A stretch of DNA of 39,739 bases, from contig JALVSJ010000240.1 in the NCBI GenBank assembly GCA_027024445.1, positions 1 through 39,739 on the forward strand, in the 5' to 3' direction. Origin of the DNA: Desulfobacterales bacterium (GTDB taxonomy: Bacteria; Desulfobacterota; DSM-4660; Desulfatiglandales; Desulfatiglandaceae). Every line of letters begins with the position of its first letter. Position 1 is the stretch's first letter. The notes below the pieces were generated by a model. That model saw only the letters and a program-made list of their open reading frames with translations, did no database searches and was not told the DNA's origin. Shown here one piece after another: positions 2,374 to 35,109 of the stretch. The translations under genes and the position numbers were made by a program.

Positions 2374-4383
2374 CTAACCGTACTGCAGCATGAACAACTG
2401 GCCGGCAGCAGCTTCCTCATACCCTATGGCCTCATATACCTCCTGATAAATCCGAGCTGAGGTTTCCATTTTCCGAGTCGATTCAGGTAAATGTAGAACA
2501 AAACGCTTCACCAATTCCCCCTCGTCTCTTATTTTTAACCCTCTTATATAGTCAATAAGCACCTGGAGCCCATCCCTATAGGGATATACTTCTGTAAACA
2601 GCTCACCCCACGTGTTTCGGTATATAATATCCATGGTAAGCCACTTTGACAGCTTATCAAGCTCTTCCATATCGATTATTGTCATTATTTTTTCCATTCT
2701 GGCCGGCTGATTAAATGCTTTACCGTTCTGACCATGATAGTATGCCGGGCTAAAGTAGGTCTGTATATGCTTAAGCAAATGAATCAGGTCATTTAGGGTC
2801 ACGCCTGTGGGATTCGGCACCATCTCCACCGTGGTCCTGTGAAAATCGTAGAGGCCGTTGTTTACCAGCCAAGCAGCTGCTCGCACAATCCTGTCAGCAG
2901 AGAAAATGCGGTGTTTTTTTCTCTTTCTTTCCGTTGGGTACCACGATGCATCATAAAGCACCCATCTGTGTTTTCCGTGTCCCCTTGGCTCATATTGAAA
3001 TACGCATCGATCTAATGTCACTCTCTTACTCGTAAGGAAAGGAGTCACCTGTAGCTTGTTCTTTCTCTGAGAGAAAAGGGCAAAAAGTTTTCTGCCCAAT
3101 ACTGTCAGATCATATTCATCTATCGCTTGTTTCTCTGTAGAGGGAAGGCCTTCGGACAACCTCCTGTAAGTACTTGAAAAAAATCTATTAATCTCCTTAG
3201 AGAACTGCAAGAGCTTGCTATAGCTCCAGTTTTCAATTTGGTTAAGCTCTTCGACCAGGTCCAGTCTCCATTTCCATTGTCTCATAAGGGACTTGAAAAC
3301 CTCATATTTATACTCTCTTCCTTTGATCCTCCTTGCCCGGGTAAGCATGGGATTAGCTTTAAGGTAGAAGGCCTTCCTCAAGAGCTGGACGGCATTTTCA
3401 TCGTGTTCTTCTTCATAGAAATCCAAGACCCTTTCCACCATAAGCAAGTAAGGGTCCAGGTCTTTTAGAAACCTCTTTCCTCCCAAGACTCGACCTTTCA
3501 GGACATCGCAAAGCAAAGGGCCCTTGAATCTGCTTGACAAATACATCTCCATCATGGCCATTTTGAGCAAGGACTTAAAGGGATCCTTTATGCCTTTACT
3601 TAGTTGCCACAGCGCATTTCCCAAGAACTCGGTCTTTGACACTTCCTTCAGATATCCCAAGTCCACAAAATCCACAAAATCTAATGGAGCCTCAACAGAA
3701 AAGGCCTCCCAAAAAGCCTCATAGGCATCCTGGCCAAGTCCGGGCGGCAAAACCCACCAGAAAGGAATCTTTCCACAGACGAATAACATGGTGCGATAGC
3801 ATTCTTCTTTGAGAAAGTTTTTTTGACTCGATCCCGAACTCTCTTCATCAACTCTTCCGAAGTCGTTTCGACGGATCTGTTCCAGGTCGAGTATAAAAAA
3901 ATGAACATCCATATTAAACGTACTCTGACACCAGTGACTGATCTGCAAAGTCTTTTCTCTAAGAGCCTCTAAGATACGCTTTGACCATTTTGACTCGTCT
4001 ACGCAAACCCAAAAGTCGAAGTCCGATTGATCTGTTTGGGCTACAGTCCCTATAGAACCTAACACAAAGAGAGATTCCACAACTGGCTTTCTCACCAGAT
4101 AGCGTTGATATGGAATCTTGCGAAATCTTGTCTCAGGAAAATACTCTTGGATTATGTCCTTCAGACGGTATGACGAACCCACTCCGTAGACCCCACAGCT
4201 CATGTCACCACGACTAACATAGCCGGGCAGGTCCACCTCGTTGACGCTGAGCAAAACAGGTATGATATCAAAAGCTACGGCCGCCTTCTCGGGATCCTGG
4301 GCGAAGGCGTGCTCCATACGAAGCCGATTATAGTTGAAAAACAGCTTTTTGTTTCGCTGGATCTGGTGAATATCAAATTCCAA
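2374..4383 (-). CDS. Class I adenylate cyclase-like protein
   Basis: A 669-residue cytoplasmic protein. The nucleotidyltransferase-type active-site motif of class I cyclases (CyaA of enterobacteria) is intact: G109-S110 and Q116 followed by S120-D121-x-D123-x-W125-V-C127. The N-terminus (FFNYNRLRMEHA) also matches the class. The protein is shorter than the roughly 850-residue E. coli enzyme, so the C-terminal regulatory part is reduced or different. The family makes cAMP from ATP. It lies just downstream of flgM on the same strand, separated by a perfect 13-bp hairpin, so it may be partly co-transcribed with the sigma-28 regulated flgM unit. The class assignment is strong; cAMP synthesis in this organism and a link to motility are inference. 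Confidence 0.82.
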   Translation of the reverse strand: MEFDIHQIQRNKKLFFNYNRLRMEHAFAQDPEKAAVAFDIIPVLLSVNEVDLPGYVSRGDMSCGVYGVGSSYRLKDIIQEYFPETRFRKIPYQRYLVRKPVVESLFVLGSIGTVAQTDQSDFDFWVCVDESKWSKRILEALREKTLQISHWCQSTFNMDVHFFILDLEQIRRNDFGRVDEESSGSSQKNFLKEECYRTMLFVCGKIPFWWVLPPGLGQDAYEAFWEAFSVEAPLDFVDFVDLGYLKEVSKTEFLGNALWQLSKGIKDPFKSLLKMAMMEMYLSSRFKGPLLCDVLKGRVLGGKRFLKDLDPYLLMVERVLDFYEEEHDENAVQLLRKAFYLKANPMLTRARRIKGREYKYEVFKSLMRQWKWRLDLVEELNQIENWSYSKLLQFSKEINRFFSSTYRRLSEGLPSTEKQAIDEYDLTVLGRKLFALFSQRKNKLQVTPFLTSKRVTLDRCVFQYEPRGHGKHRWVLYDASWYPTERKRKKHRIFSADRIVRAAAWLVNNGLYDFHRTTVEMVPNPTGVTLNDLIHLLKHIQTYFSPAYYHGQNGKAFNQPARMEKIMTIIDMEELDKLSKWLTMDIIYRNTWGELFTEVYPYRDGLQVLIDYIRGLKIRDEGELVKRFVLHLPESTRKMETSARIYQEVYEAIGYEEAAAGQLFMLQYG

Positions 4384-7526: not shown

Positions 7527-7760
7527 CTACCTTTTTAATCCATCAAGTTCACCTGGAAGGGTATCCAAACCTCCCACACTCTCCGCCGCTTTGATATTCT
7601 CCTGTACAATAGCATTGTAAACTTCAGTTCTGTGTACAGAAGTCTCCCGAGGTGCATCAATACCCAGCCTCACCTGGTTTCCCCTGATTTCAAGTACCGT
7701 GACTGTTACATTACTCCCGATGGTAATGCTTTCATCCACCTTCCTGGTTAACACCAACAT
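7527..7760 (-). CDS. csrA: Carbon storage regulator CsrA
   Basis: A 77-residue RNA-binding protein with the full CsrA core: [12 protein letters not shown] at the start, [18 protein letters not shown], then [11 protein letters not shown] containing the RNA-binding VHR segment. The C-terminal tail of about 17 residues is longer than in E. coli, as is usual where FliW binds this extension. It binds GGA motifs in mRNA leaders and represses translation, classically of flagellin. It is encoded 97 bases after flgL and directly before fliW. Confidence 0.96.
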
Positions 7761-7789
7761 AGGTACCCTCCATGGTTCCTCACTCTAGA

Positions 7790-7797
7790 TTATCGGA
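7790..7797 (-). promoter_or_regulatory. Possible sigma-28 -10 element upstream of csrA
   Basis: TCCGATAA on the minus strand matches the FliA -10 consensus GCCGATAA at seven of eight bases and lies 30 bases before the csrA ATG. The upstream sequence has no good -35 match at the normal distance, so this is a weak call. Confidence 0.25.
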
Positions 7798-7857
7798 ATA
7801 TCAAGACCTTTTCCCAGGCCCACTCAGAGGTTCTTTTCCTTGGCGCAATGGACAGAT

Positions 7858-8784
7858 CTATATATAGTCCACCAAGCTCAACTGCATGACCTTGGCCGAC
7901 GAAGCCAATGCAGCCTTATAAGCCGTCTGCCTCGTTGTAAGATCCAGCACAGCCTGGGCAATGTCTGCGTCCTCCAATTCGGATTTTCGTTCCTGATAAT
8001 TAAGCTCCAAATCCTGAATAATTCCCGCTTTTACCTCGAGCTGAGTTTCCTTAATGCCTGTGTCTGAGATTATGTTGTTGATATCGTCCATATAAATATC
8101 CAATCTGCCCATAGCTTCCTCAATCCGGTCTACATCATTGTTCTCAAGGGCAGACTTTAGATCCAGAAGACCTTTGAATATGTTCGAAGAACCTGCATCG
8201 GAATCCGACCAATTAAAATTGTCATCCCCAAATATTTGCTCTCCATCTCTGCCCACCTGGACATTCAAGTCCCTACCTATTCGAATTGAAAACGGAGTAT
8301 CATTCCCATTGTAATTGACCTGGGGCGTTGAACCACTTTCATCTAGCTCGAAGGGGGCTGTAGATGTATTAGTTCCGCTGAAAATATATCTTCCTCCCAC
8401 ACGAGTATTCGCAAGGGCAATAATTTGCCTCAGATAACCGTCTACCTGAACAGCAGCATTTGCCCTTTCTGAAGCGCCCTGGCTTGAGTTGGCCATCTGG
8501 ACGCAAAGAGCTTTTGTATCGCTAAGGATATCATATACCTGTGTCAGGGCCGATTCGCCGGCCCTTAACCATGATTTGCCAATTGAAATGTTTTTTTCCA
8601 ACTGCTGGACATTTGCCAAAGATGAACGTAGGTCCAACACATTGACAAGACCAATGGGGTCATCAGAAAGCTTATTGATGCGTTTACCGCTGCTGACCAC
8701 ATTGTGAGCCTTAACCATCTCTTCAGTCACCCTATCCAGATTTGTTCTGACACTATCGTATATTGTCTTGTTGGCGATTCTCAT
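7858..8784 (-). CDS. flgL: Hook-associated protein 3, FlgL
   Basis: A 308-residue flagellin-like protein with conserved D0/D1 ends: the N-terminal MRIANKTIYDSV and VSSGKRINKLSDDPIGL segments, GGRYIFSGT near residue 135, and the C-terminal EDADIAQAVLDLTTRQTAYKAAL helix. FlgL forms the second junction layer between hook and filament and is exported unprocessed by the flagellar type III system. The length is normal. It follows flgK by 57 bases and precedes csrA-fliW in the order typical of deltaproteobacteria. Confidence 0.96.
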   Translation of the reverse strand: MRIANKTIYDSVRTNLDRVTEEMVKAHNVVSSGKRINKLSDDPIGLVNVLDLRSSLANVQQLEKNISIGKSWLRAGESALTQVYDILSDTKALCVQMANSSQGASERANAAVQVDGYLRQIIALANTRVGGRYIFSGTNTSTAPFELDESGSTPQVNYNGNDTPFSIRIGRDLNVQVGRDGEQIFGDDNFNWSDSDAGSSNIFKGLLDLKSALENNDVDRIEEAMGRLDIYMDDINNIISDTGIKETQLEVKAGIIQDLELNYQERKSELEDADIAQAVLDLTTRQTAYKAALASSAKVMQLSLVDYI

Positions 8785-15249: not shown

Positions 15250-15981
15250 TTACCTAACTTTTGCCACCTCATTTGTGACCTTATTATCGAGGTGGTCCAA
15301 AACCTTTATGGCCCTCTGATAGCTCTCAAAAGCTCTCAGACTATGTATCATTTGAACCATTTCTTCGGCGATGTTCACGTTACTTCCTTCCAGATAGCCT
15401 TGCCGCACTGTTGATTCAGAAGGCAAGGGCTCTTCCTTCATATTTTGCGGCTTTGCGAACAAAGTGTCCCCTACCTTTACCAGCCTCTCTTCGTTGGCAA
15501 AGCTTACAATATCCAACTGGCCTACTTCTGCTCCCTCCGCGATTATTTTCCCTCTGTCATCGATCTCCACTCGTTTATCCAATAGGCTTACGCCCCCCCC
15601 CTTTCCAAGGACCTGGTACCCGTCAGGTGTGATTAAATTCCCTAATGCATCCAGCGTAAAGTTACCTTTCCTTGTGTAGCGAATTCCAATGGGAGTCATT
15701 ACCTTGAAAAATCCCCTTCCATTGATGGCAACATCTAGCATGTTCCCCGTAAACCTTATGTCTCCCTGACTCATGTCTGTCCTTATATTCACCAGAGCAG
15801 TATCTACTGACTGTCTTGCAATACCTGAGCTAATGGAGCTCTGCTGAAGCAAAAGGTTTTGGAATGATATTTTATCCTTTTTGAATCCCGGTACAGAAGC
15901 ATTTGCCAGATTGTTTGCAATAACATCAATCCTAAGCTCCTCTTTTAAACATCCTCTTACCGCTTCAATCATGCCTTGCAT
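15250..15981 (-). CDS. flgF: Rod protein FlgF (FlgF/FlgG family)
   Basis: About 243 residues with the rod-family N-terminus (LRIDVIANNLANASVPGFKKDKISF) and C-terminus (LEGSNVNIAEEMVQMIHSLRAFESYQRAIK). It resembles FlgG but is shorter and is encoded just before it, the usual place of FlgF, a proximal rod subunit. Two ATGs lie six bases apart; the second (15981) has AGGAG at the right distance, the first has it directly abutting. It is the first gene of the flgF-flgG-flgA-flgH-flgI unit behind a sigma-54 promoter. Confidence 0.9.
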   Translation of the reverse strand: MQGMIEAVRGCLKEELRIDVIANNLANASVPGFKKDKISFQNLLLQQSSISSGIARQSVDTALVNIRTDMSQGDIRFTGNMLDVAINGRGFFKVMTPIGIRYTRKGNFTLDALGNLITPDGYQVLGKGGGVSLLDKRVEIDDRGKIIAEGAEVGQLDIVSFANEERLVKVGDTLFAKPQNMKEEPLPSESTVRQGYLEGSNVNIAEEMVQMIHSLRAFESYQRAIKVLDHLDNKVTNEVAKVR

Positions 15982-16030
15982 GCTCATCTCCTATCCTATT
16001 CTGATCAGCCTTTATCTGAAACTCCCAAGA

Positions 16031-16226: not shown

Positions 16227-16520
16227 TCATCTATTCTCGATCTGTCGATTCATTGAATAGACGAAGGCAAGAACCTCGGCTACGGCCTTGTAAAGTTCTT
16301 CAGGAATCTCCTCGTACCAATCCAGTGCCGAAAGCGCTGCTACGAGGTCTGCATCCACTTGGATCGGGATTCCTTGTTGCTTGGCCAGTTCAATAATCCT
16401 TTCGGCGACTTTCCCCTGCCCTTTTGCCACCAGGCGTGGAGCATTAAACTTGATCGGCTCATAGCGAAGTGCCACTGCCTTGGTGATCTGCCTTGATTCA
16501 TGAAGATCTTTCTCTTTCAT
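16227..16520 (-). CDS. FlhB C-terminal domain homologue (FlhB2/FlhX-like)
   Basis: A 97-residue soluble protein that aligns with the cytoplasmic C-domain of FlhB after its cleavage site: AVALRYEPIKFNAPRLVAKGQGKVAERI and WYEEIPEELYKAVAEVLAFVYSMNR are parallel to the end of the true FlhB (24475-25542). The segment before AVALRY reads SRQITK, so the NPTH autocleavage motif is absent; the protein equals a free-standing, already cleaved FlhB-CC fragment. Similar proteins (FlhX, YlqH) can replace the FlhB fragment and tune export substrate switching. It lies after the second FliK-like gene (16578-17669), which suggests a shared export-control role by inference. Confidence 0.88.
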   Translation of the reverse strand: MKEKDLHESRQITKAVALRYEPIKFNAPRLVAKGQGKVAERIIELAKQQGIPIQVDADLVAALSALDWYEEIPEELYKAVAEVLAFVYSMNRQIENR

Positions 16521-16577
16521 AGTACCTTTCCTGTGAAATGAATCTTATAGCCTAGTTACCTTCTCAATTTACGCAAA

Positions 16578-17669
16578 TCAGACCTCCACATGTAGACCTC
16601 CAAAGCCCTCCTCACTTGCAAGATGCAAGGCTATTTGATCATCCACTGCCTCATGACACACAAAGGACCCAAGACGGAGCCCACTGGATTCTATCCCTCG
16701 CTTTAGAACCTCTGCGTTGTCTGAGATAAACTGTGCGACCTGGGGTTGTTCCAGATAAAAGACCAAGTCTATAGTATTCTCCTTCAAATCCAGTTTCGCC
16801 TGAACTCTTCCCAGCCTCGACAGAGTAATACTGATCCATATGGTGTACCCTCCACTGACTCTCTTTTTCGTAAGAAGTTCCGCTGCACCATATTTGCCCT
16901 CCTCATAGAAGGGGACAAACCAAAACCAGCCAACATTTCCCTCCAGTGCATACAGGTTCAGGATCTGGTGCGCTTCAATGAGTTGGAGCAATTGGGTGGC
17001 CTTTTGGGCCAGCCCTGACATTTCCACCGATTTGGTCTCAGTATCTTCTATCTCGCCTAATAGTCTTAGGAGCACCGCTTTTAGGTCATCCACCATGTGG
17101 CTCTCGACCCCTCTTGCAAATCCCTGCTTGACAATTTTCCCCAGTTTGGCCTCTAGGAAGATGCCACTTGCTGTGAGGAACATGGCTATTCGATCGGGCA
17201 GTCCCCCTTTTATCACGTCTTTATGGGAGATGGTAAAAAGGTGAACTAGTTGTTCTAGTTTGGAAATGGTACTCCTTGAAGGTCTATTGACATTTTTTGA
17301 AAGTGTAAGTATCTCTGCCAAGATGCGAATGATGGCTTCCCCGTCTGATCTTGTGGCAGCCCAAGCGCGAAAAAAGGGGTGGCCTTTATTGGAGAGCCTC
17401 GATATCACCTTAAGCTCAATTTTTGGTCTGTCTCTGCTAACTAGGAATTGATAGAGTTGACCTTTCGATAATGGTTCTTTACTGTAAGCCCGGAAGATGG
17501 CCCCTTTTGCCGATACCACCACGCCTCCCCCAGCCTCTGTGGTGAGGACAGTACCTGTAAACTTTTCCCCTCTTTTGAAGGGATTTTGCGGAAAATGGTT
17601 TTGTAGTGAGTAGCGCGAGGATATGCTTGAGAGGTTTTTTCTACCTGGCGACAGAAGGTGCCTTATCAT
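16578..17669 (-). CDS. Second FliK-like protein (hook-length control family, C-terminal fold)
   Basis: A 363-residue protein with no signal peptide. Residues about 60-110 form a small beta region (KGAIFRAYSKEPLSKGQLYQFLVS), the middle is helical, and the C-terminal part (LGRVQAKLDLKENTIDLVFYLEQPQVAQFISDNAEVLKRGIESSGLRLGSF) follows the FliK C-domain pattern, in which two strands are followed by a helix and a strand. It lacks the LxPPELG motif that the true FliK has (33439-35109). It lies between the DUF2802 gene and the FlhB-CC homologue. Role in export switching is inferred. Specific function unknown. Confidence 0.6.
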   Translation of the reverse strand: MIRHLLSPGRKNLSSISSRYSLQNHFPQNPFKRGEKFTGTVLTTEAGGGVVVSAKGAIFRAYSKEPLSKGQLYQFLVSRDRPKIELKVISRLSNKGHPFFRAWAATRSDGEAIIRILAEILTLSKNVNRPSRSTISKLEQLVHLFTISHKDVIKGGLPDRIAMFLTASGIFLEAKLGKIVKQGFARGVESHMVDDLKAVLLRLLGEIEDTETKSVEMSGLAQKATQLLQLIEAHQILNLYALEGNVGWFWFVPFYEEGKYGAAELLTKKRVSGGYTIWISITLSRLGRVQAKLDLKENTIDLVFYLEQPQVAQFISDNAEVLKRGIESSGLRLGSFVCHEAVDDQIALHLASEEGFGGLHVEV

Positions 17670-18157
17670 TGCTCTTTTGGACCTTTGTGGTGGGGCTGAT
17701 GCGCGCTGTCCAGCTTAATGATTAGTTCAAGTTCTCCTGAGGGTAGGCCTAGTCGTCGTGCGACCTCTTCCTTTGACATGCCTTTCCCAAGCAGCCTTTC
17801 TATGGTAGATCTGGTGGTGGCCATTCTGTGCCCACTCTTTTCTGGCTCAACGCCGCTTCCTATTGATTTATCGGTGATCTTTATTATTTCATTTCTTATC
17901 AACTGGGCCTTTCGGAGTTTATTATCGAGATCTGCAATCAATATGTTTGTGAGCTCTCTCTTTTCTTCTAAAATTCCCTGGAAAGACTGCCCGAGCGCTT
18001 CCATTTCCTTAATCAAGGCCATAGACTTTTCCATGGCACTTTGAAAATCCGCAGCAACCGATTTCCTGTTTAGATAGAACCGGCTTAAAAGCATTAGAAC
18101 TCCCAGTATTACTAGGTCCAACGCAAATTGTCCTATTATTAGCACCTTCAACTCCAT
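17666..18157 (-). CDS. DUF2802 membrane-anchored protein
   Basis: About 163 residues from the ATG at 18157. An N-terminal membrane segment (about residues 5-25 of that start) precedes a coiled coil (FQSAMEKSMALIKEMEALGQSFQGILEEKREL) and a C-terminal helix-turn-helix-like stretch, RLLGKGMSKEEVARRLGLPSGELELI, that defines DUF2802. The family occurs in polar flagellar clusters; its job is not established. Its stop overlaps the start of the FliK-like gene by four bases (ATGA type). A TTG start at 18202 is possible, but the ATG is more likely. Confidence 0.78.
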   Translation of the reverse strand: MELKVLIIGQFALDLVILGVLMLLSRFYLNRKSVAADFQSAMEKSMALIKEMEALGQSFQGILEEKRELTNILIADLDNKLRKAQLIRNEIIKITDKSIGSGVEPEKSGHRMATTRSTIERLLGKGMSKEEVARRLGLPSGELELIIKLDSAHQPHHKGPKEQ

Positions 18158-18320
18158 AGCCCTTTTCACTTTCCTAGGAGCTACCCACCCTGTGCTGCAC
18201 AAGATTCCTGGTAGCTTCAGCTAATTCGGTACAATATCCAAACCACCACTGGAAGCACTTGTTAGGTTTTCTCATTTTACTTGTTGCTATGGATATCTCT
18301 CTCGTCTGCGAACATGTCAC

Positions 18321-18554
18321 CTAAATCACAATGTCGATCCCTGATCCTTTTGCCTCGCCTTCCTCTTCTAGCTCAGATCTCCCAGTACTGCTGGCTATCG
18401 ACTGGCCCTTTGCATCATGATCAGTTATTCTTTTGGCCTCCTTCCTTTTCCTGCCTTTACGATCACCAGGGCCTCTTTTAGGCGAGACCTTAAGTACTCG
18501 GTCCGCTGGAGGCAGTATCACAAGGCTTGAGCCAAAGCTAGAGTATTCATCCAT
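18321..18554 (-). CDS. Small charged hypothetical protein of the flagellar cluster (77 residues)
   Basis: Start at ATG 18554 with a strong GGAGG site seven bases upstream. The protein begins MDEYSSFGSSLVILPPADRV, has a basic middle (RKGRKRKEAKR), an acidic stretch (ELEEEGE) and ends GSGIDIVI. It has no membrane segment. Small proteins with a basic linker and an I-D-I tail occur at this position next to FliL-like and DUF2802 genes in related clusters, as far as I recall; no function is known to me. It lies 73 bases after the FliL-like stop, on the same strand. Confidence 0.65.
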   Translation of the reverse strand: MDEYSSFGSSLVILPPADRVLKVSPKRGPGDRKGRKRKEAKRITDHDAKGQSIASSTGRSELEEEGEAKGSGIDIVI

Positions 18555-18627: not shown

Positions 18628-19506
18628 CTAGATAAGTTCCACCTCCATAGCACTGATCTTAACGCCGGTTACGCCCAGGGAATTGTTCAGTACCTGAGTG
18701 GCACCATCTTTGATTGCGCTCTTTTCCTTTTGAGGATTTATTCCTTTCTTCAGTAAGCGCCGGAGAAAGTGATATACCTGGCCCCGAATCTCGTAGCGGG
18801 ACTCTTTGAAGCGAATCCCGCATAAACGAGTCCAGTTAACCACAAAATCAATCTTGGCCATCAGTGCCCCCTCTTTTCCTCCATTGAGAGGTACGAAGAA
18901 AGAAGCCAGGTTTTCCTGCACAACCGGATCAGACACAGCCACTGGGTCTTCCTGTTCAACCTTCAACGAGTTCCTATGCCCAATCCTTGCTCCAATGAAA
19001 ACACCCGCCAATACAAACATGAGGCCAAACCCCATAACTCCGATAAGTACCTTGTTCTTCTTGAAAAAGGAAACTTTGTTGGTATTTGAATACGGAGTGG
19101 ATTCAGTCGATGATTCCGCCCCAGTTCTCCCTTCGCTAACATCCTTTCCCTCATCAGCCCTGCCCTCAGTGGAATCTTGCCCTTCAGACACCTCATCCGG
19201 CTCATCAAGAGTCACCGCCTCAGAATCCTCTCCTCGCTTCTCTTCCTCGTTCGGCCCTTTGGATTCATCAGAGCCTCTGGTTACATCAACCGTCGATCCT
19301 GTGTCTCCTTCATTTTCTTCTGCGGCCTCATCAAGCTCTACCGGGTCTTGTGAGAAAAAATCATCAAATCCATTCCCTTTCTCTGTGTCTTCTGGTTCCA
19401 GTTCTTCAAGGCCTTCCTCGTCAAGTTCCTCTGGGGGCTGACTTTGACCTTCAGCTTTCGGGATTTGATCCTTCAGACTCCCGTTTTCTGCTAATTCTTC
19501 CGCCAT
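18628..19506 (-). CDS. FliL-like protein with long acidic cytoplasmic tail
   Basis: About 292 residues. The first 140 are low-complexity and highly acidic (runs of E, D, S and G). A basic KKNK patch and one membrane segment (about 153-175) follow, then a periplasmic domain of about 100 residues (AKIDFVVNW, YEIRGQVYHFLRRLL, ATQVLNNSLGVTGVKISAMEVELI) that follows the FliL pattern. The start overlaps the fliA stop (TGATG), so it is translationally coupled. Its position after fliA and before the DUF2802 gene fits deltaproteobacterial order. The FliL relation is moderately supported; a stator or basal-body role is inferred. Confidence 0.6.
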   Translation of the reverse strand: MAEELAENGSLKDQIPKAEGQSQPPEELDEEGLEELEPEDTEKGNGFDDFFSQDPVELDEAAEENEGDTGSTVDVTRGSDESKGPNEEEKRGEDSEAVTLDEPDEVSEGQDSTEGRADEGKDVSEGRTGAESSTESTPYSNTNKVSFFKKNKVLIGVMGFGLMFVLAGVFIGARIGHRNSLKVEQEDPVAVSDPVVQENLASFFVPLNGGKEGALMAKIDFVVNWTRLCGIRFKESRYEIRGQVYHFLRRLLKKGINPQKEKSAIKDGATQVLNNSLGVTGVKISAMEVELI

Positions 19507-20327
19507 CACGCCCTCGGTATATCTGACATGAAGTAGCTCCTGATCCTATTTCTCAATCTTATTACCGCCTTTGTATGGAGTTGAGATATTCTGGATTCAG
19601 TATAACCCATGATCTCTCCAATCTCTTTCATTGTCAGTTCTTCATAATAATAGAGGCTCACAACCAGCTTCTCCTTTTCAGGCAGCTTATCAATAGCCTC
19701 GGCTATTACTTTTCGGAGCTCTTGATAATCAACATGGGCAACAGGGTCTGAGCCTCTCTTGTCTTGGTACATCTCCCACAATCCATTTATGTGGCGGTGT
19801 GAGATTAGTTCTCCGAGTTCTTCCTCATTTATTATTGAAACGCCTCTGGTCTCTTCCAAAAGTTTGTAAAAGGAGTCCATGTCCAGATTCAGCTCCTTTG
19901 CAACTTCTGAGTCTTTCGCCGGGGCCATCTTTCTGTTTTCTACCTTCTCGTAAGCCTCTTCTAATAGTTTCGCATTTTTTCTCACTGACCTTGGAACCCA
20001 ATCCATGGCCCTAAGTTCATCCAGCATGGCTCCCCTTATCCTGAATTCGGCGTAAGACTTGAAGGCCACCCCTTTTTCTGGATCGAATTTCTCTATTGCG
20101 TCAAGAAGTCCCATGATCCCCGCACTCAGCAGATCGTCCTGATCTACATGGGGCGGAAGTTTCATTGCGAGGCGGCCGGCAATCGTCTTTATCAAAGGAG
20201 CATACTTATACACATATTCCTCTCTCTCGATTGCGTTTAACCGGGTTTTCCCCCGCCTGGGTTCTTGACTATACTTCTTTACTTTATTGGTCGCTGTGCT
20301 CCTCATAGTAGTCTCTCTTCCGAGCAT
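19506..20327 (-). CDS. fliA: Flagellar sigma factor FliA (sigma-28)
   Basis: About 273 residues. Sigma region 2 has DDLLSAGIMGLLDAIEKFDPEKGVAFKSYAEFRIRGAMLDELRAMDWVPRSVR; region 4 has LPEKEKLVVSLYYYEELTMKEIGEIMGYTESRISQLHTKAV. This is the FliA/WhiG class. It directs RNA polymerase to GCCGATAA promoters such as the one at 5125 and is inhibited by FlgM (4482-4802). The ATG at 20327 lies two bases after the flhG stop; the ATG at 20306 has a better GGAAGAG site and may be the true start. It is downstream of flhF-flhG, as in polar flagellates. Confidence 0.96.
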   Translation of the reverse strand: MLGRETTMRSTATNKVKKYSQEPRRGKTRLNAIEREEYVYKYAPLIKTIAGRLAMKLPPHVDQDDLLSAGIMGLLDAIEKFDPEKGVAFKSYAEFRIRGAMLDELRAMDWVPRSVRKNAKLLEEAYEKVENRKMAPAKDSEVAKELNLDMDSFYKLLEETRGVSIINEEELGELISHRHINGLWEMYQDKRGSDPVAHVDYQELRKVIAEAIDKLPEKEKLVVSLYYYEELTMKEIGEIMGYTESRISQLHTKAVIRLRNRIRSYFMSDIPRA

Positions 20328-20328
20328 G

Positions 20329-21240
20329 TTAATGGGCAGTCTTAAGTAACCTTTGCCAGAAAAACTTAACATCTCCGTCAAACTCGCAGTGGTCGCTGAA
20401 GCTCATAAGCCTCTCAGCCACTTCCATAAACTTCTTGCTGGCCTTGGATAAGGGAAATAGATCAAGAACAGCTTGCTGCCTCCTTACGGCTTTTGGGACA
20501 TTCTCGTCATATGGAATCCACCCTAAATAATCGAGAGATAATGAGCCAAGGAACCGGTCCACCACTACGCACAGATGCTTGTAAATTTGCTCGGCTTCCC
20601 GATTGCTTTTGGCCGAATTGATCAGGATTCGAAACTTCTTTTGGTGGTATTTGTTGGCCAGTACTTTTATTAACGCATACGCGTCAGTCAATGAGGCAGG
20701 TTCGTTTGTAATAACAACCAATTTTTCCATGGCTGCGAAATTAAAATACATTACGTTTGATGAAATTCCCGCTCCTGTATCAATAAGAAGAACGTCAAAA
20801 AAATGGTGCAAAGCATCAAACTCGTCGAGCAGGAACATCCTTTGGGCATGAGTCAAATCTGTCAGCTCCGGTATACCTGAAGCTGCAGGCAAAAGATGAA
20901 ATCCGGCCGGTACATTCAAGATAACTTCTTCCAGCCTCTTTTCACCAGACAGAACATGCTGTATTGTGTACCTCGGGTTAAGGCCAAGTAACACATCCAT
21001 GTTGCCTAGACCCAGATCAGCATCAAGGATAAGAACCCGTTTTCCAAGACGGCACAGGGCCAAGGCCAGATTTGCCACTACATTCGTCTTCCCAACACCA
21101 CCCTTTCCACTGGTCACAGAGATTACTCGTAGCTCGTTCATCTCATCCTTGAGTGATCTTTCTTTGGCAACGGACCACGTCTCCTGTCCTGTTCTTAGCG
21201 CATCTTCAACCATTGTCCTCAATCGGCTAGCTTGGTCCAT
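20329..21240 (-). CDS. flhG: FlhG (FleN/YlxH) MinD-like ATPase, flagellar number regulator
   Basis: A 303-residue P-loop ATPase of the MinD family. The N-terminus has the DQASRLR motif (residues 2-8; DQAxxLR), which stimulates the FlhF GTPase. The deviant Walker A is SGKGGVGKT (44-52), followed by LILDADLGLGNMDVLLG and the LLIDTGAGI segment. FlhG limits flagellar number and partners FlhF. Its start overlaps the flhF stop by 14 bases. A C-terminal amphipathic helix (FMEVAERLM) may bind membrane. Confidence 0.95.
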   Translation of the reverse strand: MDQASRLRTMVEDALRTGQETWSVAKERSLKDEMNELRVISVTSGKGGVGKTNVVANLALALCRLGKRVLILDADLGLGNMDVLLGLNPRYTIQHVLSGEKRLEEVILNVPAGFHLLPAASGIPELTDLTHAQRMFLLDEFDALHHFFDVLLIDTGAGISSNVMYFNFAAMEKLVVITNEPASLTDAYALIKVLANKYHQKKFRILINSAKSNREAEQIYKHLCVVVDRFLGSLSLDYLGWIPYDENVPKAVRRQQAVLDLFPLSKASKKFMEVAERLMSFSDHCEFDGDVKFFWQRLLKTAH

Positions 21241-22381
21241 AATGCATTACCTCGCCGCCTCGCTCTATTGATCTCACACGATTCCTGCGCAATATCAATT
21301 CGCCTAACCTTTTCCTCGTCGCAAGCTCGATATCTTCAGGTACATTTTGGCCAGTGGTGAAATATGAAACAGGCCTTTTCCGCTCTAAAAGAAAATTAAT
21401 CATTGATGACCCGTCCATCACTTCGTCCAGCTTTGTAAAAATATAACTTTTGAGTGGAAGTAAACGAAACGCCTTCTCTGCAGCAAGCAAGCTCTCCAGT
21501 TCAGTGTTAGCACTGAGTACAAGATAATGGTAAATGGGATACGGAACATTCAGTGCTTCCCCGATTCTACAAACATCTTCCCTATTATTAGGGCTTCTGC
21601 CTGCTGTATCTATAAGGATCACGTCAGCCCCTCTATATCGCTCAAGGGCGGCCCTTAATTCCGCTGAATTATCAGCCACCTCCAGCGGTAGACCCATTAT
21701 GCGAGCATAAGTCTGCAGTTGGGCCACGGCACCGATGCGATAGGTATCCACCGTTACCAAGGCCACCCTTAGCTTCTTTTTTACTTTATAAATTGCCGCC
21801 AGTTTCGCCATTGTAGTGGTCTTTCCAACTCCTGTTGGCCCCACAAACGCATATATTCTCTGCCTATCACGCAGCGTTGATTCCTTGGCGATTTTTATTG
21901 AGCGCACTATGTCTATGAGACACTCTTGCATTTCTTCTCTCGACAACGCTCTTGTGTGTTGAGTGGCTTCGCCTTTTTTATGCTGTTCTATAAGGTGTAT
22001 GTTTTCAGGGATGATGCCAAAATGCCTGTAATAAACATAGTGGTTCCGTGGAACACACAGGTCAGTCAAGTTACAACCATGAATAGTCGTAGCCTCCAGA
22101 GCCATAAGAAAATGTGTGATTTCCCTCAGCCTTGATTCCAATTGCTCCCACTTTTTTTGAAAGTCCTTATCTTCATAGTCTCTATGGATCCTCTCAGGGC
22201 TGAGGGCAGCATCATAATCAATAGCAGCGGTCACCTCTATTTGCTCCCTGGCTGTGCCGTGACCAAGCCCCTCGTTGACAATTGTTCTTGTTTTGAGGAT
22301 CACGGCATCAGGCCCCATTTCTTCCTTCACTTTCTGAAGCGCTTCCCGAGAATTTCTCGCAATGAATGTCTTAATGTTCAT
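21227..22381 (-). CDS. flhF: FlhF SRP-type GTPase, flagellar placement
   Basis: A 384-residue signal-recognition-particle GTPase. The N-terminal B region starts MNIKTFIARNSREALQKVKEEMG. The NG domain shows G1 GPTGVGKTTTMAKLA, TVDTYRIGAVAQLQTYA, G3 LIDTAGRS and G4 TKLDE. FlhF places the flagellum, usually at the pole, and recruits early basal-body parts. It starts two bases after flhA and overlaps flhG. Polar flagellation is thus likely. Confidence 0.96.
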   Translation of the reverse strand: MNIKTFIARNSREALQKVKEEMGPDAVILKTRTIVNEGLGHGTAREQIEVTAAIDYDAALSPERIHRDYEDKDFQKKWEQLESRLREITHFLMALEATTIHGCNLTDLCVPRNHYVYYRHFGIIPENIHLIEQHKKGEATQHTRALSREEMQECLIDIVRSIKIAKESTLRDRQRIYAFVGPTGVGKTTTMAKLAAIYKVKKKLRVALVTVDTYRIGAVAQLQTYARIMGLPLEVADNSAELRAALERYRGADVILIDTAGRSPNNREDVCRIGEALNVPYPIYHYLVLSANTELESLLAAEKAFRLLPLKSYIFTKLDEVMDGSSMINFLLERKRPVSYFTTGQNVPEDIELATRKRLGELILRRNRVRSIERGGEVMHYGPS

Positions 22382-24474: not shown

Positions 24475-25542
24475 CTATCCTGTCTTTCTTTTCAGTCTGT
24501 AAACATAGGCGAGTATTTCAGCCACTGCTTGATACAATGAAGAAGGTATTTCTTCGCCGATATCCACTGATTTATACAAATTTTGTGCCAGCGGTTTGTT
24601 CTCGATTATTGGCACTTTATGCTCTTTGGCAACTTCTCGTATCTTAAACGCAATATGCTCTGCACCCTTTGCCACGACCTTTGGGGCACTCATGGTAAAC
24701 GCATCATATTTCAGAGCAATTGAGAGATGACGCGGGTTGGTGATAACCACGTCCGCTGTTTTCACTTCTTCCATCATGCGCCTTCGTGCTATCTCTCTCT
24801 GAATAGCCTTTATTCGACTTTTTACTAAAGGATCTCCTTCTGTTTGCTTCAATTCTTCTTTTACTTCCTGCTTGGTCATCTTAAGGTTCTGCTCGAAATC
24901 CCATTTCTGGTATAAGTAATCAAGGAAGGCGAGCAGGGCAATCACTATGGTACTTTTGGCCATGACCTTCATAGAGCTGTGACCCAAGTAACTGATTATC
25001 TGCATCTTATCCTGATATGTGAGGAGTATAAGGTGACCAAGCTCTCCCTTTACAACCGACATTGCCGCCCACCCCACAATCAAAATCTTGGCAATGGACT
25101 TAGCTAGCTCTACCAAAGAGCGTTTTGACAGGATTTTCTTAGCCCCCTCTACAGGGTTAATTTTTGACGCCTTTGGCGCCAAGGGTTCGACACTCCAAAT
25201 GAGCCCCGTCTGAGCCAAATTCGCCAGCAATGCTATCAGGCCCAAGGCCAGCATAATTGGAAACAGCAATAGGGTATAAAACTGCAGATAATCTTTGGCA
25301 GCTACAAATACGTCAGTGTTCCCTGAGTTGATATACTGTATAGACGTAAAGGCTCTCTGCATCATCGCGCCAAGAGAAACCATTATTCTCTTTCCGCCAA
25401 AAAAGAAAAAAAGCAGAGCCGCACCCATAACCGCCACAGACGGAATCTCTCTGCTTTTTCCGACTTGCCCCTTTTTGCGAGCATCCTCTCGCCGCTTTGG
25501 AGTCGGTTGTTCGGTCTTTTCTTGAAAGGATTCTTCGGGCAT
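24475..25542 (-). CDS. flhB: Flagellar export switch protein FlhB (NPRH variant)
   Basis: A 355-residue protein with an N-terminal EKTEQPTPKRREDARKKGQV signature, four membrane segments (about 35-215) and a cytoplasmic C-domain. The autocleavage site is N269-P270-R271-H272 in place of NPTH; the catalytic N-P and the His are kept, so cleavage is still expected. FlhB switches export from hook to filament substrates when FliK signals. It starts 7 bases after the fliR stop. A second, FlhB-CC-like protein lies at 16227-16520. Confidence 0.97.
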   Translation of the reverse strand: MPEESFQEKTEQPTPKRREDARKKGQVGKSREIPSVAVMGAALLFFFFGGKRIMVSLGAMMQRAFTSIQYINSGNTDVFVAAKDYLQFYTLLLFPIMLALGLIALLANLAQTGLIWSVEPLAPKASKINPVEGAKKILSKRSLVELAKSIAKILIVGWAAMSVVKGELGHLILLTYQDKMQIISYLGHSSMKVMAKSTIVIALLAFLDYLYQKWDFEQNLKMTKQEVKEELKQTEGDPLVKSRIKAIQREIARRRMMEEVKTADVVITNPRHLSIALKYDAFTMSAPKVVAKGAEHIAFKIREVAKEHKVPIIENKPLAQNLYKSVDIGEEIPSSLYQAVAEILAYVYRLKRKTG

Positions 25543-29504: not shown

Positions 29505-30020
29505 TCATTGCACTATGAACTCTGTAAAATATACGTTCTTTATCTTTCCTGTTTTTAGATACCTATTAAGAGATGCCAGAATTTCAGCCCGTAGCTGATA
29601 CTTTCCGGATAGATCACTAATGTCTTTGAACGACTTGCTACTCAACAGAGTCAAGATTGCGTCTCGAAGCTGGGGGAGCCTCTTGTCCATTTCCACTCGC
29701 ATCTCTTCTTTTGCCAGTTCCAGTTGCATCGTAACCTTGAGGTATCTCTTTCCCATGGGATCCATCAAATTGACGATAAAAGTATCCATTGGATATATCG
29801 GGCCAATATCAGGCTTTGCCACCTCTTCTGTCTTCTTTGCTTGAACCTCCTTTTCCCCCTTACCCAAAAGCTTGTCCAACATTCCGCTCTTGAAGGCGAA
29901 AAATCCTCCTCCTGCCAAAATAAAAACCAGCAGCACCAGGATTATCAACTTTACAGGCAGACCTTTTTTCGCCTTCTCTTCCTCTCTTCCTTGTGCTTCT
30001 TTTTTTTCTTCATCAGCCAT
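29505..30020 (-). CDS. fliL: Flagellar basal body protein FliL
   Basis: A 171-residue protein: charged N-terminus (about 1-22), one membrane segment (about 24-45: VKLIILVLLVFILAGGGFFAF), a KK/E-rich linker and the FliL domain (IGPIYPMDTFIVNLMDPMGKRYLKVTMQLEL ... FKDISDLSGKYQLRAEILASLNRYLK ... VYFTEFIVQ). This is the canonical FliL; it surrounds the stator and supports torque. It lies between motA and fliM. Confidence 0.95.
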   Translation of the reverse strand: MADEEKKEAQGREEEKAKKGLPVKLIILVLLVFILAGGGFFAFKSGMLDKLLGKGEKEVQAKKTEEVAKPDIGPIYPMDTFIVNLMDPMGKRYLKVTMQLELAKEEMRVEMDKRLPQLRDAILTLLSSKSFKDISDLSGKYQLRAEILASLNRYLKTGKIKNVYFTEFIVQ

Positions 30021-33438: not shown

Positions 33439-35109
33439 TTAAACAACTATACTCAATTGATGGCTATGTTCTAAAACTACACCTGGAGTTTTCGTGTCTT
33501 GAATCACCTCGGTGTGATTTGACACCTGGATATTGTGCGAATGGGAAAACCTCTCATTTTGTTCACCCTGCCCTGATGACGCTTCAAATCCTCCTCCCCC
33601 CAAACCAACCATTACCTCTAACTTGTCCACCACAAACCCCGCCTGAGTCAGATGGTGCCTGAGGACATTGAGGCTTCCTTCCACAATTTCTTTTGCCCAG
33701 GGATGTTCCGTACCAAGCTGCACTTGCAAATGTCCCTGCTTCACAAGAACTCTGAGGTCTATCTGCCCAAGCTCCGGGGGATGCAGAGTGAGTTTGCTTT
33801 CGTGTTGTCCCCTTGCCACCATCCACCTTAAGTGCTCAATCACCTTTTGGAGAGTGTCGTAGGGATTTGTCCAATTGGCTACTGTTGGACTAACCCACTC
33901 AATAGCTTCTGACCGGAGGGTGTTTTGATTACTGTCTAGAACCAAAGGCGCTTGATTCTTGTTTTCAGAAGTTAATTTCGAGATTCTTGTAGTTTTCCCT
34001 GGTTTATTTCTTAGTGCCGAGGTGATCGGACTTTTCTGAGTATTTCCTGATTCTTCAGGCCTTGATATGGATACACGAATAGATTTGATTTGAGACATCG
34101 GTTTGTGAGGCTTATCACCACTTGCCTCTGCCACTTCATTTAGGCGGGCCTTTAACTGCTCTCGAAGCGATAGGTTTTTGGTGTTTGTTTTGTCTTTTAC
34201 TCGTATGCTCTTGAGCAGTGCTTCTATTTGTTTCTCTGTAACTTCTTCGCCCTTTTCATTATCTCGCGCCCCTTTAGCTGAATTGAAGGTCGTGGTCTCC
34301 AGAATTTGTTTTATCTTCTCAGGGGACAGGCCCTTGCCCCTTAGAACATAGGCTAGCTTTCTCTTTGCAACTGCACTCTGTCCCTTACTTGAGTCTTTTG
34401 GCTCCTGAAATATCTTCAATATATCCTCTTTACCCTTCAACTCCTTTGCCAATGAGCCTAAATTTTGTGGTCTAAGAGGTATGCCCAGATTTCGCAATAA
34501 AGCCTCCATATCCTTTTCACTCAGTTTCAGGCCAGGAGCAAGGTCCTTCAGCATTGCTACAACGTCAGTTATTTCCAATTCAGCTTTTGCAAGCCCGTGT
34601 TTCTCCAGTGCACCTTTTACCGCTTCCAAGTCGCCGCCCAATCTCAGGAAGGCTAAAGCCAACTGTGGTACGTATTCTCTTCCTATACCAATGTTCGAGT
34701 CCCCTGATGGTCTCTTGGCTAATATGCTTTGAACACCCCGTGCTAGCGCGTCCAAGTGTATCAGTCCATTGGAATCAGTAGCTTTGTTTATTAGTGACGT
34801 AATCTGCTCTTTCGTAAGTCCTAACTTTTCGAGAATACTCGCGAGGGCAGCCCCCTTTGTGGAGGGGATCATGACACCCGCGCCAATCAGTCCAGTCAAT
34901 GATTCAACTATTTTCCATTCCTTTTGGATAGAACACTGTTTATTGCTCTTACCCATCCGATGGTCCTGCGAAAACCTTATCCCGTGGATTTCCTTTGCCA
35001 ACAGCTTTCCAAAAAGTCTTTTTGTAGGCGCCAGACTCCCTCCTTTACTTGAAGCATCAGATTGGGGAGAAATATCCATAAACAAATTGAGCGCCACCGG
35101 GTCTTTCAT
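33439..35109 (-). CDS. fliK: Hook-length control protein FliK
   Basis: A 556-residue protein. The long N-terminal part is low in conserved sequence and includes possible helical repeats (LEKLGLTKEQITSLI, LEKHGLAKAELEI, LRGKGLSPEKIKQIL), which may form the molecular ruler. The C-terminal FliK domain (about 420-510) has the PPELG motif at 444-448 followed by Q-I-DLRVLVKQGHLQVQL. FliK measures the hook and triggers FlhB. It is the first gene of the fliK-flgD-flgE operon behind a sigma-54 promoter. Confidence 0.92.
   Translation of the reverse strand: MKDPVALNLFMDISPQSDASSKGGSLAPTKRLFGKLLAKEIHGIRFSQDHRMGKSNKQCSIQKEWKIVESLTGLIGAGVMIPSTKGAALASILEKLGLTKEQITSLINKATDSNGLIHLDALARGVQSILAKRPSGDSNIGIGREYVPQLALAFLRLGGDLEAVKGALEKHGLAKAELEITDVVAMLKDLAPGLKLSEKDMEALLRNLGIPLRPQNLGSLAKELKGKEDILKIFQEPKDSSKGQSAVAKRKLAYVLRGKGLSPEKIKQILETTTFNSAKGARDNEKGEEVTEKQIEALLKSIRVKDKTNTKNLSLREQLKARLNEVAEASGDKPHKPMSQIKSIRVSISRPEESGNTQKSPITSALRNKPGKTTRISKLTSENKNQAPLVLDSNQNTLRSEAIEWVSPTVANWTNPYDTLQKVIEHLRWMVARGQHESKLTLHPPELGQIDLRVLVKQGHLQVQLGTEHPWAKEIVEGSLNVLRHHLTQAGFVVDKLEVMVGLGGGGFEASSGQGEQNERFSHSHNIQVSNHTEVIQDTKTPGVVLEHSHQLSIVV

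Follow-up and report, generated by a model that had tools for sequence, protein, structure and literature searches.

A FliK-type protein and a free FlhB C-domain form a widely conserved gene pair and a candidate accessory switch unit of flagellar export

The flagellar cluster analyzed here encodes, next to a free FlhB cytoplasmic C-domain (FlhX), a FliK relative (FliK2), and such FliK2/FlhX-like pairs are ancient and have been kept together across many bacterial phyla. The sequence features of the pair point to a function in the switching of export. In the window, by which we mean the whole stretch of 39,739 nucleotides of a Desulfobacterales contig, the pair is accompanied by genes for a 77-residue protein (P77) and a FipA/SwrB-like protein. 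We see about an even chance that this four-gene module serves the flagellar export gate as an accessory switch unit of FliK-FlhB type. FliK2-FlhX is its general core, and P77 and the FipA-like gene are lineage additions.

The whole window is a single long flagellar cluster. All four minus-strand open reading frames that a first-pass annotation had placed there are present: P77 (18321-18554; 77 aa), the fipA/swrB-like gene (17666-18157; 163 aa), fliK2 (16578-17669; 363 aa) and flhX (16227-16520; 97 aa), with the fliK2 ATG overlapping the preceding fipA-like stop as ATGA. FliA, FlhG, FlhF, FlhA and a FliLMNOP set are encoded upstream and FlgF/G-type rod genes downstream, the rod gene downstream of flhX lying on the minus strand at 15250-15987 (PF06429, PF22692, PF00460). 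The minus strand also carries the classical pair that the annotation had listed, flhB with an NPRH motif in its translation (24475-25542) and fliK (33439-35109; 556 aa, translated end QLSIVV, PF02120 at 61.6 bits). Upstream of the module, a second FliL-like protein (18628-19509, minus strand) was assigned from a weak PF03748 match of 12.9 bits together with its position. It is very divergent, with an acidic disordered N-terminal part, one membrane segment and a weak FliL domain; a FliL-like gene occupies the same place in about 9 of 14 relatives, and the classical FliL is encoded separately at 29505-30020.

FlhX had been annotated as a free FlhB C-domain devoid of the NPTH motif, and the family analysis bears this out. 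PF01312 aligns to it over positions 262-335 of 335 (73 bits), the nearest model is TIGR00789 (flhB_rel; 100.7 bits against a curated cut-off of 117.35 bits), and its PDB matches are the FlhB-CC structures 3b1s and 3b0z. There is no transmembrane part, and the NPxH autocleavage motif occurs in 0 of 76 FlhX sequences. The early-substrate pocket of Salmonella FlhB consists of A286, P287, A341 and L344 (PMC13344023); the FlhX equivalents A27, P28, A81 and L84 are kept in 70, 76, 76 and 73 of the 76 sequences. With 27 of the 97 FlhX columns as strongly conserved, retention of all four would arise by chance at about 0.6% under independence, which makes it suggestive. These data identify FlhX as the FlhB C-domain made as a protein of its own, in effect pre-cleaved, in which the predicted docking pocket for rod and hook substrates is kept. 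The annotation had also held that none of the four proteins has an assigned function. This does not stand for FlhX, which belongs to a known family: to go by the title of Wand et al. 2006 (in PMC3040844), H. pylori HP1575 (FlhX) is a "spare part" for FlhB-CC, a role reported there for deleted FlhB-CC.

The assignment of FliK2 as a second FliK-like protein is upheld by PF02120, the C-terminal switch domain, which matches at 37.1 bits (cut-off 29.8) and is found in 65 of 67 family members. Searched against PDB sequences, the family profile has one convincing match, FliK 2RRL (2.9e-5). The AlphaFold2 (AF2) model, built with 67 relatives, is compact (mean pLDDT 84.7). It comprises a disordered segment (1-26), an OB-like beta domain (~36-91), a helical domain (~98-243), a beta/alpha switch (T3S4) domain (~248-340) and a disordered tail (355-363). 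Residues 36-340 are folded, mostly at high confidence, and an extended disordered N-terminal ruler was not encountered. In Foldseek, the C-domain matches FliK 2RRL and the PscP switch domain 5cuk (rmsd 1.8), matches being weak overall, and whole FliK2 has no match below an E-value of 0.001. The N-domain weakly but consistently matches OB folds of IF1/eIF1A and of proteasomal ATPases, on which its OB-like assignment rests. FliK contacts FlhB through V302 and I304 (PMC6972891); both equivalent positions are hydrophobic in 62 of 67 FliK2 proteins, and the adjoining G is kept in 65. Within the window's own order, FliK2 length is nearly constant (352-366 aa). FliK2 is hence a FliK relative that has the switch half and the tail, with a folded OB-like/helical region in place of the ruler.

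Comparison across genomes shows how the four genes belong together. A FliK2 protein search over 61 related genomes gave a match in 15, own genome included. In the 14 other own-order loci, the FipA/SwrB-like gene is directly upstream of FliK2 in all 14 (the L008 copy being cut by the contig end), FlhX is directly downstream in 13, and nearly all have a small charged ORF at the P77 position, between the FliL-like and FipA-like genes. FlhX was used as a second seed, independent of FliK2, in three samples. The gene immediately upstream of FlhX is FliK2 in 24 of 30 loci from the window's own phylum, in 68 of 80 GTDB-wide by HMM (70 after inspection of L125 and L139), and in 29 of 30 from the phylum of Aneurinibacillus. 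Record titles in the GTDB sample include Nitrospirae, Nitrospinae/Nitrospinota, Sulfurihydrogenibium, Hydrogenedentota and Aneurinibacillus, and further Syntrophomonadaceae, a planctomycete, Aquicultor and Thermotogae. Order and orientation of the two genes are kept across phyla, and their ends often overlap.

In several genomes of the phylum of Aneurinibacillus, FlhX and flhB are separated by distances of tens to hundreds of kb. As the pair persists at such a distance, the link between FliK2 and FlhX is more than membership in a common cluster. The condition under which the annotation would have been refuted, independent occurrence of the families, fails for FliK2-FlhX, and its view of a FliK-type and an FlhB-type gene as a unit apart from classical fliK/flhB agrees with their adjacency in all three samples. 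The second substrate switch that it suggested is an inferred role. A chance neighborhood was rejected on synteny in the own order, the own phylum, GTDB and the phylum of Aneurinibacillus. Natural FliK2-FlhX fusions, considered as proof of contact, were not seen; the long "FlhX" ORFs are extended frames overlapping FliK2. Residue coupling between the two proteins (98 pairs, Neff 92) was at noise level, inter-protein scores being no clearer than intra-protein ones. We take ylqG/ylqH to be the corresponding pair of B. subtilis, and to our knowledge Salmonella and E. coli have no FlhX.

The annotated four-gene form is less general than its core. The window's phylum (Desulfobacterota-type), Hydrogenedentota and Nitrospinota have both P77 and the FipA-like gene beside the pair, and some Nitrospirota have P77 alone. 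In four loci of Nitrospirota/Nitrospinota (L104, L110, L138, L140), P77-type proteins precede FliK2 without a FipA-like gene. Most loci of Nitrospirota or Bacillota showed no FipA-like gene in the vicinity of the pair, and neither addition was seen near it in the Aneurinibacillus locus. Since both are missing beside the pair in many phyla, neither is essential to it.

Several loci depart from the common arrangement. One genus (L020-L024 against L048-L050) has FliK2, P77 and the FipA-like gene at one site and FlhX at another place in the genome; several of its genomes have both FliK2 and FlhX, unlinked, and the genus thereby offers a natural test of the need for linkage. A 780-aa protein upstream of FlhX in a Thermotogae locus (L139, 5657-7999) was missed by the FliK2 HMM; its end, GSFDVYA, is by sequence a typical FliK tail. 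Four loci of Desulfobulbaceae/Deltaproteobacteria type (L141, L146, L152, L154) have no recognizable FliK2 upstream of FlhX; where the contig reaches far enough, FlhX is on its own ahead of a rod gene. In L087, FliK2 and the region matching FlhX are separated by a small helical-bundle-type ORF (7578-7937). A complete FlhX frame was not called there; an insertion or frame disruption is possible.

P77 starts with ATG just downstream of a GGAGGA-type ribosome site. It is charged and of low complexity, and against Pfam and NCBIfam it matched no family above noise. AF2 gave a pLDDT of 58 and a pTM of 0.18, and disorder is predicted. A spurious ORF was rejected, as both position and C-terminus are conserved and the relative in L002 is 57% identical. 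A small ORF occupies the P77 position in 65 of 67 loci; the relatives have 70-124 aa, 38% charged residues and a partly conserved N-terminal segment. Our tail scan found FliK-type C-termini on the minus strand in both P77 (GIDIVI-COOH, 18324-18341) and FliK2 (LHVEV-COOH, 16581-16595), and the end of P77, GSGIDIVI, resembles that of E. coli FliK, NSGVDIFA. The tail occurs in 60 of 67 ORFs at the P77 position (44 in the strict form [VIL]D[VIL]x[VIA]), in 94 of 110 FliK2 proteins, in 16 of 20 classical FliKs sampled and, with a slightly wider pattern, in 27 of 30 FliK2 loci of the phylum of Aneurinibacillus. The motif was set after the ends of FliK2 and P77 were known, and the independent checks are classical FliK, E. 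coli and the phylum of Aneurinibacillus. As controls, FipA-like proteins (0 of 67) and FlhX (0 of 113) lack it. Background frequency is 2-4%, with 78 of 2093 other ORFs (3.7%; strict, 32 of 2093) and, among ORFs of at least 250 aa, 13 of 565 (strict, 0).

Within the module, the tail motif appears specific to FliK2 and P77, and these comparisons identify P77 as a protein, disordered by prediction, that bears a FliK-type tail. For Salmonella, it has been proposed that FliK acts through its last five residues on FlhBCCD, with subsequent loss of FlhBCCD (PMC13344023). Our tentative proposal, for which we would put the chances at distinctly below even, is that P77 is the first member of a so far undescribed family of small, disordered "switch-tail" proteins. 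By offering the C-terminal peptide of FliK to FlhB-CC/FlhX in trans, they would let a soluble peptide set or hold export specificity independent of hook length, with FliK2-FlhX as a conserved pair able to reload and clear the FlhB-CC position of the gate. The tail has just 5-6 residues, and other selection, e.g. for degradation or for a different partner, could produce it.

The FipA-like gene encodes 163 aa from its ATG, and a TTG at 18202 would yield 178 aa. An N-terminal membrane anchor is followed by a coiled-coil-like region and a C-terminal DUF2802/DUF6115 domain, as indicated by Pfam on the relatives and by the FipA invariants. The annotated DUF2802 label is clear across the family, 45 of 59 relatives matching at E<=0.01 (best 5e-11); the window protein itself falls below the Pfam cut-offs, with 23.3 against 33.5 bits for DUF2802 and 24.4 against 27 for DUF6115. 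DUF6115 matches 57 of the 59, and all 59 have an N-terminal hydrophobic segment by hydropathy. A PDB sequence search with the family returned only generic coiled-coil/HTH matches. For DUF2802, too, the statement that no function was assigned has to be revised: FipA is an FlhF partner that acts on FlhF localization, with the invariants G110, E126 and L129 in V. parahaemolyticus, of which G and L are needed for FlhF binding (PMC11620751). G126, E142 and L145 of the window protein correspond to them at identical spacing and are kept in 52, 58 and 55 of 59 sequences. FlhF (21227-22381) and the FlhG-type ATPase FlhG (20329-21240), the FipA partner system, are both encoded just upstream of the module on the minus strand, as assigned by profile matches. 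The gene product likely serves as a membrane anchor and belongs to the FlhF-binding family, with FlhF as a likely contact; FipA-type proteins would thereby extend beyond gammaproteobacteria. SwrB we assume to represent the DUF6115 side of this family. SwrB activates export through FliP (PMC4526659), and FlgW/SwrB is a listed flagellar component of Campylobacter (PMC9321776).

Taken together, the module could operate as follows. FlhX would be a replaceable, ready-made FlhB-CC, and FliK2 its dedicated cytoplasmic switch partner. FliK2 probably binds FlhX, in our judgement, and perhaps also FlhB-CC; it would do so via switch domain and tail, staying in the cytoplasm. That FliK2 and FlhX govern how the FlhB-CC position is occupied, and with it early and late export, seems to us an evenly balanced proposition. 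FliK2 would set the timing with which FlhX occupies or leaves this site at the gate: once FliK ejects the original FlhB-CC, FlhX would restore the early (rod/hook) export mode, which FliK2 would then end. P77 may act on the same tail-binding surface as FliK2, as competitor or trigger, competing for or adding to the contact; we hold this somewhat less than evenly probable. The FipA-like protein might tether the set to the membrane in the vicinity of FlhF and the gate, and here we judge the two outcomes equal.

A simpler account sees FlhX as a backup FlhB C-domain and FliK2 as a redundant second FliK that aids its folding or docking, with no separate switching event, and counts P77 and the FipA-like protein among the factors of FlhF-dependent flagellar placement. 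It draws on the title of Wand et al. 2006 on H. pylori FlhX (in PMC3040844) and on the action of FipA on FlhF localization (PMC11620751), together with the nearby flhF and flhG. However, a pure backup is not expected to retain a dedicated FliK-type neighbor in about nine of ten loci across phyla, and P77 bears a FliK tail without evident placement role; we regard this account as rather unlikely. The switch domain, tail and disordered N-terminus of FliK2 would also suit a second exported regulator of length or timing, e.g. at the rod or early-to-hook transition, with FlhX as its own docking partner and P77 as a small exported mini-FliK. P77 relatives, with their partly conserved N-terminal segment, disordered linker and tail, look like FliK minus the folded core. 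Exported rulers are largely extended. FliK2, in contrast, is mostly folded in its AF2 model and nearly constant in length within the order, and we consider this reading improbable.

Finally, the genes might be mere neighbors without joint function, as the window is a long flagellar cluster in which most neighbors share regulation. The preserved order, orientation and often overlapping ends of FliK2-FlhX, even with flhX far from flhB, largely refute this for the pair, and the tail motif specific to FliK2 and P77 also speaks against it, leaving it very improbable. The accessory switch unit remains our preferred reading.

All parts of the module except P77 fall into known families. FlhX/FlhB2 (H. 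pylori HP1575; TIGR00789) is likewise a stand-alone cytoplasmic C-domain of FlhB that lacks a transmembrane part and, by the title of Wand et al. 2006, is reported as able to replace FlhB-CC; here, the difference lies in a general one-to-one pairing across phyla with a non-ruler FliK2, and in the P77 and FipA-like additions. FliK shares with FliK2 the PF02120 switch domain, the LG-x-h-x-h contact strand and a VDxxA-type tail, whereas in FliK2 the folded OB-like and helical parts take the place of the disordered ruler, and the classical FliK is separate in the window. Gammaproteobacterial FipA has the same N-terminal anchor, coiled region, DUF2802 and G-(16)-E-(3)-L pattern, with FlhF/FlhG nearby. 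Its gene, however, sits downstream of the flhAF/chemotaxis operon rather than next to FliK2-FlhX, and the family of the window protein matches DUF6115 slightly better than DUF2802, the window protein itself staying below the Pfam cut-off. SwrB of B. subtilis (FlgW/SwrB in Campylobacter), a monotopic membrane protein (PMC4526659), is similar by description and possibly of the same family. The Flk/Fluke and FlhBCCD early-mode locks of Salmonella (PMC13344023) likewise combine a removable FlhB-CC with a membrane-anchored accessory regulator, a likeness of idea rather than of demonstrated sequence relation. The openly licensed papers searched gave no description of the general FliK2-FlhX pairing, of its P77 and FipA-like additions or of a FliK-tail protein beyond a passing mention of "flhX-fliK" as a single locus in Nitratiruptor (PMC9321776).

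A widespread FliK-FlhB pair and a near-bare FliK-tail protein provide genetic and biochemical handles on the FliK/FlhB switch step. The way in which FliK turns FlhB from export of hook to export of filament proteins has been debated for decades. If true, our preferred reading would suggest that many bacteria have a second flagellar export control point and that the Salmonella/E. coli model is a reduced case. A class I adenylate cyclase-like protein (best NCBIfam score 494 bits, below cut-off) is encoded at positions 2374-4383 of the window, where the flagellar cluster has its edge.
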